8,163 bases of DNA, taken from positions 1 through 8,163 of the forward strand of contig JALHDK010000157.1 in the NCBI GenBank assembly GCA_022838965.1. The letters are read 5' to 3'. This DNA comes from Actinomycetales bacterium (GTDB lineage: Bacteria > Actinomycetota > Actinomycetes > Actinomycetales > Actinomycetaceae). How positions within the stretch are numbered: position 1 is the stretch's first letter; the number at the start of each line of letters is the position of its first letter. A program made the position numbers and the translations under genes. Positions 2,700-8,163 of this stretch are shown one piece after another. Under the pieces are notes generated by a model, which was not told the DNA's origin, searched no databases, and saw only the letters and a program-made list of their open reading frames with translations.

Positions 2700-5600
2700 A
2701 TGACGTCGACGTCGGAGAGGTGGGTGAGCCTCGGCGAGCCTGCGTCGGCGGCGGAGGCGGCGGCCTTGCAGGCGTTCCGGCGTCTGCTCCCGGACGACGG
2801 CGTCACGCGGGCGTGGGCGAACCTCACCTTCCTGGACACGAGCGGCCGCTCGGCCGAGGTGGATGTGCTGCTGTTGTCCCCGGTCGGGTTGTACGTGGTG
2901 GAGTTGAAGGGCTGGCACGGCACCATCAGCGGGGATCAGCAGAACTGGCAGGTGCAGTTCGCGGACCATCTTCCGCCCCGCTTCGAGCGCAATCCGTATC
3001 TCCTGGCGGACGGGAAGGCGAAGCGGCTGGCGGGCCTGTTGAAGCAGACCGCTCCCCGGGGCCACCAGGATGTGGTGCCGTTCGTGCAGGCCGTGGTGGT
3101 GCTCCACGGCCGGGACGCCCTGGTCGAGCTGGACGGGCTCGCCGCGTCCCACGTGCTGGCGCTGGATGGGTACAACGTGCGCGGCCTGCCGCCCGAGCGC
3201 ACCCTGTCCCGCTTCCTGGCCACCCCGCCGGTGAACCCGCGCCATCAGATCACCCCCCGGCAGGCGGAGCAGCTCGCCGCGCTGATCGCGGCGGCGGGGT
3301 TCGTCCCCACCCCCAAGATGCGCATGGTGGGGCGTTACCGGCTCACCAGCGCGGAGCCGATCGCCACGGGGAAGGGCTGGCAGGATCATCTGGCCGCGCA
3401 CCCGGACGTGCCGGGTCTCACGCGGCGGGTCCGGCTGTTCGATCTCCCGCAGGGGGCCTCCCGCTCGGACCGTGAGGAGCTGGAGCGGCTCGCGCAGCGG
3501 GAGTTCTCCCTCACGCGGGGTATCCGGCACGCGGGCATCGAGGCGCCGGTCGATTTCGTGCGCACGGATGCCGCTCCAGCGTTGATCTTCGAGCACGACG
3601 AGCGGGCCCTCCCCCTGGACGCGTACCTGAACGCGCACGCGGCCACGTTGTCGTTCACGTCCCGGTTGGCGCTGATCCGCCAGATCGCGGAGGTGGTGGC
3701 GTACGCGCATTCCCGCCGGCTGACGCACCGGGCGCTGGCGCCGGACCGGGTGCGGATCACAACGGTGGACGGCGCCCCGCAGGTGCGGATCCGGGACTGG
3801 ATGACGGGCCGGCGGACGGAGGCGTCCTCCCACCAGCCCACCCTGACGGTGTTGTCCGCCGGGACGGGGGATGTCGCGGGTCTGCTGGACTTCACGCAGT
3901 GGGCGTATCTCGCGCCGGAGACGCTGCGTGGCGCGTCGGATCCGCCTCCGATCCCGCTGGACGTGTACGGGGTGGGTGCCCTCGCCTATCTCATCGTGAC
4001 GGGGCAGCCGCCGGCGAAGGACATGGCGGAGCTGCAGGACCGCGTCCTGACCGGCCAGCCGCTGGACGCCGCCGCGATCCGTCCGGACCTTCCGGAGCCG
4101 CTGGTCCAGCTCGTGCGGGCCGCGACCAGCCCGAACGAGCTGGACCGCCCGGCCACGGTGGCCGAGTTCCTGGACCGGCTGGCCGAGGTGGAGGCGTCCA
4201 CCCGGGCCGTCACGGTGGCCGCCCCCACGGATCCGCTCGAGGCGGTGCGGGGGACGCGTCTGGCGGACCGTTTCGAGGTCCGCGCGCGCCGTGGCCGCGG
4301 GTCCACGGGCACGGCGCTGCTGGTGGACGACGAGGTGGGGGACCACGAGGGCGTGGTGTTGAAGATCGCCCGGGACGATGCGGCCGCGGCCCGCCTCGAC
4401 GCGGAGGCCGCCGTCCTGGCCACCCTGGACCACCCCCGCATCGTGCAGCTCCTGGAAGGCCCGCTGGACGTGGACGGCCGCCGCGCCATCCTGCTGTCCG
4501 ACGCCGGCCGGAAGACCCTGGCGGACCGGCTCGCCTCGGAGGGGCGGGCCACGATCGAGCAGCTGGAGAACTTCGGCCGCGACCTGCTGGAGGCGGTGGC
4601 CTACCTGGAGACCGCGGGCGTGTTCCACCGGGACATCAAGCCCACCAACCTGGGGGACGCCCCGGACCGGGGCACCCGCAAGCCCCGGCTCACCCTGTTC
4701 GATTTCTCGCTGGCCCCGGAGCCGGTGGAGCGGCTGGGCTCGGGCACGCCCGGCTACCTGGACCCGTTCCTGGGTACCGGCCGGCGCCGCCAGTATGACC
4801 GGGCCGCGGAGTTGTACGCCGCCGCGGTGACGTTGTTCGAGATGGCCAAGGGCGAGTTGCCGGTGCTGCCCACCATGTTCGATCCGGCGGTGGGGGAGCA
4901 GTTGACGGCGTTCTTCACCCGGGCGTTGCACCCGGACGCGGCGCAGCGGTACTCGAATGCCGCGGACCTGGGCCGGGCGTGGGCGGGCGTGTTCGCGCAC
5001 CTCGACCGTGCTCCCGGGGCGGGCGACGACGGCGAGTCGGATGCCGCCCGCGCCGCGCGGGACGCGCAGGCCGCCACCGCCACGCTCACGACGCCGCTGG
5101 CGGAGTCGGGGCTCTCGCCACGGGTGTTGTCCGCGTTGGCGGCGCGGGAGGACGTGGCGACGGTGGGGGAGCTGATCGCGATCCCTGCGACCCGGCGGAA
5201 CTCGATCCCCGGGCTGGGGGAGCGGTACCGGCGCGAGCTGGCGGCCCGGGTGCAGGAGTGGCGCGCGGCGCTGCTGCCGGGGACCACGATCCAGCCGGCC
5301 GAGGAGCTGCCGGAGGGGCAGCTCGGGGTGGAGCGCATCGCGGAGGGGCTGATCCCGCGCCGCAGCCCGGCCAACACGGTGGAGGTGGAGGCCCTGGGCG
5401 TGCTGTTGGGGCTGGAGCGGTCGCCGTCGGTGTGGCCCACGGTCCAGGAGGTGGCCGCCGCGGTCCGGGCGCCGCGGGGGGAAGTGGAGCGCGCGCTGGA
5501 GAACGCGACCCGCCGGTGGGTCAAGGGCAGGCGCCTGGCGGCCACCGAGGAGCTGCTCCTCGAGGTGCTACGGTCCCGCCAGGGGGTCGCGGAGCGTTGG

Positions 5601-5867
5601 GGTCCACGGTGGAGGGGGAGGACCGGTACCGGGTGGCGGCGGGGGTGGTGCGCGCCGTCGTCGAGGTGGACGCGCGGCGGGATCAGCCGCGGCTGGTGGT
5701 CCGCCGTGTGGCCGACGGCGCGGCCCTGCGTGCCGTGGTGGTCGCGGCCACGGATCCGGGGGTGGTGCTGCACGGCGACACGGCCCTCGACCTCGTGCAG
5801 GCGCTCGCGGCGGCGGCGGACGGGCTGGTCGCGGAGCGGTCGCTGGTGCCGCAGGCGCACGCGGTGA
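2700..5867 (+). CDS. pglW: PglW, serine/threonine kinase of the Pgl/BREX type 2 system; frame breaks near 5600
   Basis: PglW is the large cytoplasmic Ser/Thr kinase of the phage growth limitation system. I start it at ATG 2700 (MTSTSERWVSLGEPASAAE), because conserved sequence begins there. Domains: a NERD nuclease-like domain at about residues 45-165 with AEVDV (E53, D55) and VELKG (E68, K70); a kinase-like domain at about 208-500 whose catalytic loop reads HRALAPDR (from H343) and whose DFG position reads RDW, so it looks inactive; a second kinase at about 520-770 with GRGSTG loop, K555, E569, HRDIKPTN (643-650, D645) and DFS at 668-670, which looks active; then a helix-hairpin-helix-like part at about 803-865 (SIPGLGERYRREL). 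True PglW sequence continues to about residue 967. After that the frame yields about 88 arginine/tryptophan-rich residues and stops at 5867, while the real continuation lies in the -1 frame to 6796. Joined, the protein would be about 1365 residues. Family and domain order are secure. Whether full-length protein is made is open. Confidence 0.9.
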   Translation: MTSTSERWVSLGEPASAAEAAALQAFRRLLPDDGVTRAWANLTFLDTSGRSAEVDVLLLSPVGLYVVELKGWHGTISGDQQNWQVQFADHLPPRFERNPYLLADGKAKRLAGLLKQTAPRGHQDVVPFVQAVVVLHGRDALVELDGLAASHVLALDGYNVRGLPPERTLSRFLATPPVNPRHQITPRQAEQLAALIAAAGFVPTPKMRMVGRYRLTSAEPIATGKGWQDHLAAHPDVPGLTRRVRLFDLPQGASRSDREELERLAQREFSLTRGIRHAGIEAPVDFVRTDAAPALIFEHDERALPLDAYLNAHAATLSFTSRLALIRQIAEVVAYAHSRRLTHRALAPDRVRITTVDGAPQVRIRDWMTGRRTEASSHQPTLTVLSAGTGDVAGLLDFTQWAYLAPETLRGASDPPPIPLDVYGVGALAYLIVTGQPPAKDMAELQDRVLTGQPLDAAAIRPDLPEPLVQLVRAATSPNELDRPATVAEFLDRLAEVEASTRAVTVAAPTDPLEAVRGTRLADRFEVRARRGRGSTGTALLVDDEVGDHEGVVLKIARDDAAAARLDAEAAVLATLDHPRIVQLLEGPLDVDGRRAILLSDAGRKTLADRLASEGRATIEQLENFGRDLLEAVAYLETAGVFHRDIKPTNLGDAPDRGTRKPRLTLFDFSLAPEPVERLGSGTPGYLDPFLGTGRRRQYDRAAELYAAAVTLFEMAKGELPVLPTMFDPAVGEQLTAFFTRALHPDAAQRYSNAADLGRAWAGVFAHLDRAPGAGDDGESDAARAARDAQAATATLTTPLAESGLSPRVLSALAAREDVATVGELIAIPATRRNSIPGLGERYRRELAARVQEWRAALLPGTTIQPAEELPEGQLGVERIAEGLIPRRSPANTVEVEALGVLLGLERSPSVWPTVQEVAAAVRAPRGEVERALENATRRWVKGRRLAATEELLLEVLRSRQGVAERWGPRWRGRTGTGWRRGWCAPSSRWTRGGISRGWWSAVWPTARPCVPWWSRPRIRGWCCTATRPSTSCRRSRRRRTGWSRSGRWCRRRTR

Positions 5868-6796
5868 CGGTGCTGCGGGAGACGCTGCACCGGGCGCGGG
5901 CGGAGGCGGTGTCCGCGGCCCTCGACGACGACCGGCTGCTGCGTCTCGCGGCGGCGGGCGCCCTCCGGGCGAGGGTGTCGTCGCGGGGGGAGCTGTACCC
6001 GCGTGACCTGCCGGGCACGGAGGCGGTGCTACTGGCGCTGCGCGGCTCGACCGCCCGGATGCTCACCCGCGAGCGGGCGCGGGCCCGGGTGACGGGCCGG
6101 TTCCCCGCGGTGGTGGGCGTGCCGGACGGGCCGGCGTTCGTGGAGCTGGTGGAGCAGGCGCTGCCGGCGCTGAAGTGGGACGGGGAGCGGTTCACGCAGG
6201 TGGATCTGACCGCGGGGGCGTCGGTGACGTCGCCGACGGTCACGGACCTGCACACCGTCAACGTCCCGTCCGCGGACCGGATGCTGCGGGCCTCGCTGCG
6301 GACCCGTTCGGCGCTCACCCTGGCGGTGAGCCCGGGGCGCTACCTGGACACGGCGGCGGCGCTGGCCGAGCGGTACGGGGTGAGGGTGGTGGATGGTGCG
6401 GCGCTGGTGGTCGCCGCGTTGCGGGAGGGGGCGGCGGCCCACGGGGCGGAGTGGGACGCGGTGACCGGCCTGGACGCCCACCCGGAGCGGGAGGACCTGT
6501 TCGGGATCCTGCGGGGTCTGGCGCGCGAGGTGGTGCCGCCCCGGTGGGAGGAGATCGCGGCCCGGCCCGAGCCGTTGCTGGTCGTCAACGCGGGCCCGCT
6601 CGCCCGGTACGGGCTGACGGACCTGCTCGCCCGGTTCTTCGACCTCGCACGGCCGCGTCCGGCAGCGCGGTGGCTGCTGGTGGCCCGCCGGCCGGCCGAC
6701 GCGGTGCCCACCCTGGACGGCTATCCGGCGCCGCTCGGCCCGGACGGGTGGGTGGACGTGCCGGTGGGCCTGACCGAGATGAAGGGGATCGCATGA
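5609..6796 (+). pseudogene. pglW: 3' part of pglW in the shifted frame
   Basis: From about 5600 the protein-like sequence moves to the -1 frame: STVEGEDRYRVAAGVVRAV, and later EAVLLALRGSTARMLTRERA, ALTLAVSPGRYLDTAAALAE and PLLVVNAGPLARYGLTDLLA, ending in GLTEMKGIA before the TGA at 6794-6796. This is the C-terminal region expected of PglW, and it abuts pglX exactly as a normal pglW would. I give the start as GTG 5609. GTG 5633 is an alternative, preceded by a good Shine-Dalgarno-like ggaggggg-agg run at 5611-5621, so separate translation is conceivable. From GTG 5609 the product would be 395 residues. Inserting one G in the run at 5599-5602 would join both halves as ERWGSTVEGED; inserting one at 5614-5618 would also work. 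The frame change itself is certain from the given bases, and its cause is not. Confidence 0.8.
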
Positions 6797-8163
6797 TCAA
6801 CTCCACGGCCCTGCTCGCGGACCTGAAGGCCCAACTGAAGGCGCTGACCGCGGATCTGCGGGCCCAGGCGGAGGATCCGGGCCAGCGGTGGTCGCGGGAG
6901 CTGCGCGCCCAGTTCGCGGAGGCGACGGCGGCGGAGCGGACCGGGCTGTCGTGGCCGGAGTGGCGCGACGGCGAGGTGGACCAGGCTGCGGTGGCGTGGC
7001 TGGTGACCTGCGCTTTTGTGCGGTTCTGCGAGGACAATCACCTCCTCGACGGCGCCCGTGACGGCTCGGGCCGGCTGGTGGCGGTGCCGTGGCTGGCCGG
7101 GCCCGGGGAGCGGTTGGCGCGGGCGGCGGAGAACGAGGAGGCGTTCTACCGTTCGCGGCCGACGGCGAACTCGCGGGACTGGTTGCAGCAGGCGTTCGGG
7201 GTGCTCGCGGATCTGCCGGCGGGCCGGTTGCTGGTGGACCGGCAGCACAATCCGGTGTGGTCGGCGCTGATCAGCGCGGAGGCCGCGCAGCGGCTGGTGG
7301 AGTTCTGGCGGCGTACGGATGCGGCCGGGGCGCTGGTGCACGACTTCACCGATCCGGACCTGGGGACCCGGTTCCTCGGGGACCTGTACCAGGAGCTGTC
7401 CGAGTTCGCGCAGAAGAAGTACGCGCTGTTGCAGACCCCGGTGTTCGTGGAGGAACTGATCCTCGACCTGACCCTGACCCCCGCAATCGAGGAGTTCGGG
7501 CTGGAGGGGCTGAAGCTCATCGACCCCACCTGCGGGTCCGGGCACTTCCTGCTGGGCGCGTTCGCCCGGCTGGATGAGCTGTGGCGGGTCCACGCCCCGG
7601 GGTTGGAGGACCGCGCCCGGGTCCAGCGTGCCCTGGACTCGATTCACGGGGTGGATCTGAACCCGTTCGCGGTGGCGATCGCCCGGTTCCGGCTCACGGT
7701 CGCCGCCCTGCAGGCGTCGGGGGAGCCCTCGCTGGTGACGGCGCCGGCGTACGACTACCACCTCGCGATCGGGGATTCCCTGCTCGCCGCCCAGGGCCGG
7801 CAGGCCGAGTTCTCCTTCGACGACGCCGAGCCCTTCGCCTACACGGCGGAGGACGTGGCCGAGTACCGGGACATCCTCGCCGAGGGCCGGTATCATGTGG
7901 TGGTTGGCAACCCGCCGTACATCACGGTGAAGGACAAGGCACTCAACCAGCAGTACCGGGCCGCGTACTCCACCTGTCACCGGCAATACGCCCTCTCGGT
8001 CCCGTTCATGGAGCTGTTCTTCCGCCTCGCACAGAGGGCGTTGCCGTCCGGTGGGGCGGGGTTTGTCGGGCAGATCACCTCCAACTCGTTCATGAAGCGC
8101 GAGTTCGGCACCAAGGTCATCGAGAACCTGCTCTCCGGCGCCGACTACGCCAACCCCGTGGAC
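6793..8163 (+). CDS. pglX: PglX, adenine-specific DNA methyltransferase of the Pgl/BREX type 2 system (5' part)
   Basis: PglX transfers a methyl group from S-adenosylmethionine to adenine N6 in DNA. In BREX-type systems it marks host DNA, and in Pgl it is thought to modify phage DNA released in the first infection cycle. The frame opens at ATG 6793, overlapping the pglW stop as ATGA, so the two are coupled. It runs without a stop to the right edge (457 codons), so the C-terminal part with the rest of the target-recognition region is missing. The first 230 residues are mostly helical (AVAWLVTCAFVRFCEDN, QTPVFVEELILDLTL). The SAM-binding motif I is DPTCGSGHF at 244-252, followed by GVDLNPFAVAIARFRL, and the catalytic motif IV is NPPY at 373-376. 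No frame break was found in this part. The ATGA junction and the adjacent pglW make the PglX name firm rather than a generic type I or IIG methylase. Confidence 0.92.
   Translation, partial: MINSTALLADLKAQLKALTADLRAQAEDPGQRWSRELRAQFAEATAAERTGLSWPEWRDGEVDQAAVAWLVTCAFVRFCEDNHLLDGARDGSGRLVAVPWLAGPGERLARAAENEEAFYRSRPTANSRDWLQQAFGVLADLPAGRLLVDRQHNPVWSALISAEAAQRLVEFWRRTDAAGALVHDFTDPDLGTRFLGDLYQELSEFAQKKYALLQTPVFVEELILDLTLTPAIEEFGLEGLKLIDPTCGSGHFLLGAFARLDELWRVHAPGLEDRARVQRALDSIHGVDLNPFAVAIARFRLTVAALQASGEPSLVTAPAYDYHLAIGDSLLAAQGRQAEFSFDDAEPFAYTAEDVAEYRDILAEGRYHVVVGNPPYITVKDKALNQQYRAAYSTCHRQYALSVPFMELFFRLAQRALPSGGAGFVGQITSNSFMKREFGTKVIENLLSGADYANPVD

Follow-up and report, generated by a model that had tools for sequence, protein, structure and literature searches.

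Does a frame break among short runs of G in the defence gene pglW mark a reversible switch, or is it the trace of something larger? The window, as the whole stretch of DNA analysed here is called, comprises 8,163 nucleotides of contig JALHDK010000157.1 (assembly GCA_022838965.1, an Actinomycetales bacterium). In Streptomyces coelicolor, a phase-variable G tract in pglX was reportedly described by Sumby and Smith in 2003. The first-pass annotation had assigned the broken gene to pglW and placed the break in a cluster of three G runs, one of them supposedly short by a G. It considered a switchable site, with a sequencing error or an inactivating mutation as the fallback.

The gene name is right. 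The PglW profile of PADLOC (PDLC02512) matches over profile positions 3-975 in frame +3 and over 989-1387 in frame +2, and the NCBIfam model NF033442 is matched in the same two frames over positions 2-974 and 987-1384. The two halves score 905.9 and 215.2 bits with NF033442, so that neither alone passes its cut-off of 990. An intact counterpart was found among predicted proteins: P0001, a PglW of 1392 aa that reaches 1183.1 bits against the same cut-off. Of the 1365 residues that the window shares with P0001, 1363 are identical and two are substituted. P0001 represents a five-member cluster built at 90% identity, in which a broken member could hide. Together with its intact relative, the window gene displays the architecture of BREX type 2 or Pgl PglW proteins (NF033442, PDLC02512), i.e. 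a NERD domain, two kinase-like domains and a C-terminal region; the combination of NERD and a Hanks-type kinase domain by which BREX-2 PglW is recognized is present. Judged from its sequence, the gene is by descent a BREX-2 PglW, broken as read.

As in BREX type 2 systems, pglX comes next on the plus strand with an overlapping stop and start: its ATG overlaps the pglW stop as ATGA (6793-6796). The 5' part of this gene, coding for the BREX-2 adenine methyltransferase, occupies 6793-8163 and runs past the window end; it scores 633.9 bits with NF033451 (cut-off 400), which identifies the neighbour as a pglX of BREX-2 type. A search of plasmids with the P0001 protein returned 103 records, none of them covering 80% of P0001. 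The search for close relatives gave no match among phages and a single record among plasmid DNA, limited to 59 nt (8066-8124) that are 86% identical to part of the gene for an N-6 DNA methylase on a Streptomyces plasmid; this match is a conserved methyltransferase stretch of pglX.

GC content starts at about 61% on the left side of the window, peaks at 79.5% over 5601-6000 and is back down to 64% at the right end; the left 2.5 kb of the window may have another origin. A PemK/MazF-type toxin gene (PF02452; 1896-2222, minus strand) lies there on the strand opposite pglW and is overlapped by a small ORF of the same strand (2219-2425) that fits a MazE-like antitoxin. DNA about 65-70% identical to this region occurs in 13 plasmid records, seven of them from Mycobacterium, and a search with the PemK-like protein found no relative in viral contigs. 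Further left, a minus-strand ORF of 157 residues (896-1369) has neither a Pfam nor a PHROG match; none of its 19 homologs (identity up to 85%) carries a Pfam domain, and 15 of the 19 lie on contigs of at most 5910 nt. The sequence at 1780-1812 may be akin to an insertion-element end. No tRNA or other RNA family was detected within the window.

The frame break itself is real in the letters. The pglW coding sequence, whose start at ATG 2700 was set from the start of P0001 (the open frame itself opens at 2517), runs in frame +3 over 2700-5594 and then in frame +2 over 5594-6793. The two frames are recovered by PADLOC, by NF033442 and by the GC content of the codon phases, which is free of homology. 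The latter places the change at 5596, with 5594-5597 within two units of the optimum, in coincidence with the homology-derived junction; over 5300-5899 the log-likelihood is -247.3 with one change, versus -314.4 and -363.8 when either frame is kept throughout. A pattern scan of 5400-5800 returned no promoter or terminator.

Comparison with P0001 by tblastn gives the size of the lesion. On the plus strand, pglW falls into three parts. The first (2700-4862) corresponds to P0001 residues 1-721, with 720 of 721 identical, and carries the NERD domain, the first kinase-like domain and the N-terminal portion of the Hanks-type kinase domain, as seen in the Pfam NERD and kinase matches. The second (4863-5594) keeps the same frame and corresponds to residues 739-982 (244/244 identical). 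The third (5594-6796) corresponds to residues 993-1392 in frame +2, with 399 of 400 identical, and ends with the TGA at 6794-6796. What is absent at the frame break (5594-5595) is residues 983-992 and one nucleotide, a gap of 31 nt beside the G runs and not the one missing G that had been put forward. The profile positions skipped between both PglW matches already hinted at a loss larger than a single base.

The first-pass annotation had overlooked a second gap, of 51 nt, located 732 nt upstream of the frame break. At the 4862-4863 junction, P0001 residues 722-738 are absent, i.e. 17 residues of the kinase domain lost in frame, and no run of at least four G is found there. Such a gap is invisible from reading frames alone. 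The Pfam kinase match was considered as a proof of damage: in the window it ends at profile position 197 of 263, versus 251-254 in four of the five intact proteins scanned. This argument is weakened by the fifth, the intact protein P0025, whose match ends at 201.

Both missing stretches are widespread in the family. When the best 120 of the 360 homologs found, P0001 among them, are aligned, residues 983-992 are complete in 119 of the 120 and residues 722-738 in 116; at least 70% of either stretch is kept in 120 of the 120. Their presence throughout these 120 best homologs makes the window most simply the derived form. Where the two gaps lie, how long they are and what they do to the frame are direct observations from the comparison with the near-identical intact P0001. 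The frame break is very probably what a 31-nt deletion left behind in a BREX-2 pglW that is otherwise ordinary but also bears a second deletion of 51 nt. No copy of the break was found elsewhere in viral contigs or among the scored protein candidates. The sole match in the genome contigs, L002, stops short of the break site.

This leaves little room for slippage in runs of four or five G as a source of phase variation of pglW. The three runs do lie where the first-pass annotation had put them, at 5582-5586, 5599-5602 and 5614-5618 on the plus strand, the first in the upstream half and the other two downstream of the break. Aligned to P0001, however, all three have the lengths that P0001 predicts and each already encodes the homologous residues in its own frame, so that no run is short by a G. 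The claim that an extra base in the region restores a single frame holds arithmetically, and a G tract, of 8 G in M145, does drive the variation of S. coelicolor pglX (PMC4365076, in its accessible part). Ten codons would nevertheless remain absent after any change in a run. The gap of 31 nt differs from the single homopolymer unit by which a phase-variable G tract shifts the frame, and runs of 5, 4 and 5 G are shorter than the 8 G of M145 pglX.

Nor are such runs distinctive in this gene. Over 2700-6796 there are 40 runs of at least four G (24 of four, 14 of five and two of six), the longest having six. Three such runs within 37 nt occur in five of 4060 windows of that length, at two places, of which the other, 5312-5351, has no break; the cluster is thus mildly unusual. 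With runs of the expected length and a 31-nt deletion beside them, phase variation of pglW is extremely improbable and the switch as proposed is not real. The accessible parts of three open-licence papers (PMC4365076, PMC9009780, PMC9122589) report no frame switch in pglW.

Programmed ribosomal frameshifting, which would fuse both frames into a working and slightly shorter PglW, was considered as well. It would accord with the coherence of both frames as far as the junction. However, no heptamer of the form X XXY YYZ starts in any frame at 5490-5867, the stretch at the break is missing from none of the aligned homologs (the best 120 of 360), and the product would still be ten residues short. 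This explanation is accordingly regarded as highly implausible.

How the gaps could have arisen was addressed at the junctions. Inferred from the P0001 protein, and assuming that the ancestor of the window encoded the same residues, the possible junction homology amounts to at most 1 nt for the 51-nt gap and at most 3 nt for the 31-nt gap, for a chance expectation of about 0.9 nt. If the ancestral residues were the same, these values argue against tract slippage and against deletion or collapse between direct repeats. Repeat-mediated deletion or collapse was rejected for want of a direct repeat at the deletion ends beyond these 1 and 3 nt; the longest one shared by the flanks (60 nt each) has 7 nt and lies away from the junctions. 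Neither gap would thus be a reversible switch, since neither is at a tract or a repeat, and no sign of reversibility was found at the pglW gaps.

Two further candidates were discarded. Skipping of a hairpin formed by pairing of the flanks would require strong pairing, and the sequences on either side of the junctions pair less strongly than those around most of 792 sampled positions: with flanks of 20, 30 and 40 nt, the 51-nt site ranks 671, 768 and 784 and the 31-nt site 659, 709 and 711 (rank 1 being the strongest). A GC peak behind an assembly gap was likewise set aside, the junctions lying at the 8th and 66th percentiles of GC in 100-nt windows. Two causes remain: the letters were lost in library preparation, in sequencing or in assembly, or the deletions are real and free of homology. 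These correspond to the fallback of the first-pass annotation, which is what survives of its interpretation.

That both deletions are library, sequencing or assembly errors, the pglW of the organism being intact like that of P0001, is judged somewhat better than an even bet. In our judgement, deletions of 51 and 31 nt beside two substitutions make an odd ratio for natural divergence; two mid-size deletions next to only two substitutions in 1365 residues are what tips the balance towards error. Consistent with it, no near-identical C-terminal fragment was found when 7995 predicted-protein candidates were scored, the five matches reaching 47% identity at best. Against an error stand the junctions without repeats, which at the level of the protein rule out a simple collapse of the graph, their unremarkable GC content and, for both junction GC and flank pairing, the lack of any positive artefact signature.

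Contig L002 (JALHFZ010000059.1), a metagenome contig filed under a Synergistaceae MAG, bears on the same question from both sides. Within its segment 7472-9346 it matches the window at 6721-8067 with a single mismatch, at 6723, adjoining a join. The join falls inside a guanylate kinase gene (Pfam PF00625), near its start, and the DNA continues from there as the end of pglW followed by pglX. Guanylate kinase was matched in ten of the ten genomes searched (G001 and nine relatives), and in three aligned relatives the match starts at the same phosphate-binding stretch. The window spells part of that stretch in antisense at this place, a short similarity that may be what led to the join. L002 thus looks like a chimera mis-joined at window positions 6721-6723, which suggests that near-identical DNA has been misassembled elsewhere. 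That the same DNA was probably misassembled at least once speaks for an error in the window too. On the other hand, L002 equals the window at all 1344 positions of 6724-8067, and the window is therefore not of poor quality there.

The alternative, that the strain inactivated its pglW by deletion and that the window shows a real and irreversible loss-of-function allele, is given a credible chance, if one a little short of even. It agrees with the presence of at least 70% of both lost stretches in each of the best 120 of the 360 homologs and with the notion that costly or toxic defence genes may be inactivated. For S. coelicolor, PMC4365076 describes toxicity of PglX when PglZ is absent and calls PglW-His6 likely toxic to Escherichia coli. 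It also reports secondary mutations in pglZ knock-outs: two of the three M145 knock-out strains had a contracted pglX G tract, and the third was mutated elsewhere. Two deletions are present, however, although one would suffice, and neither pglW nor as much of pglX as the window contains shows further decay.

The consequences of such an allele would be severe. Translation from ATG 2700 is predicted to end at 5867, giving 965 native residues followed by 90 foreign ones encoded out of frame on the plus strand over 5595-5867 (TGA at 5865-5867). This product would lack the C-terminal 400 residues as well as 17 residues of the kinase domain. The stop-start overlap of pglW and pglX, expected to couple the two genes, would be lost to translation, and that of pglX would probably suffer. 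A broken pglW would leave the system Pgl-minus. The kinase activity of S. coelicolor PglW is required for resistance, the K677A mutant being phage-sensitive (PMC4365076, accessible part). With this activity needed and PglX toxic in the absence of PglZ, a genuine deletion allele would make the strain Pgl-minus, and selection could favour it. It is tentatively suggested, with rather low confidence, that among near-identical strains some have an intact pglW and others one broken by deletion, the activating kinase and not PglX being lost under selection against cost.

Compared with known BREX type 2 or Pgl PglW, the window gene differs by the absence of 17 and 10 residues and by the shift out of frame that goes with the latter. 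With the phase-variable pglX of S. coelicolor it has in common a pglW-pglX pair and a disturbed frame in a pgl gene. In that system, as presented in the accessible part of PMC4365076, a tract of 8 G gains or loses a G, whereas here 31 and 51 nt are gone from pglW with no tract or repeat involved. The disrupted BREX reading frames covered in the accessible part of PMC9122589 are similar in that a BREX gene has a broken frame; they concern PglX, in contrast to PglW here, where an error is also possible. The locus mostly calls for caution: a frame break amid short G runs mimicked a phase-variable switch, and a single intact relative exposed a gap of 31 nt. Real deletions would add one more defence system turned off by irreversible loss, and would suggest PglW as a target of such loss.
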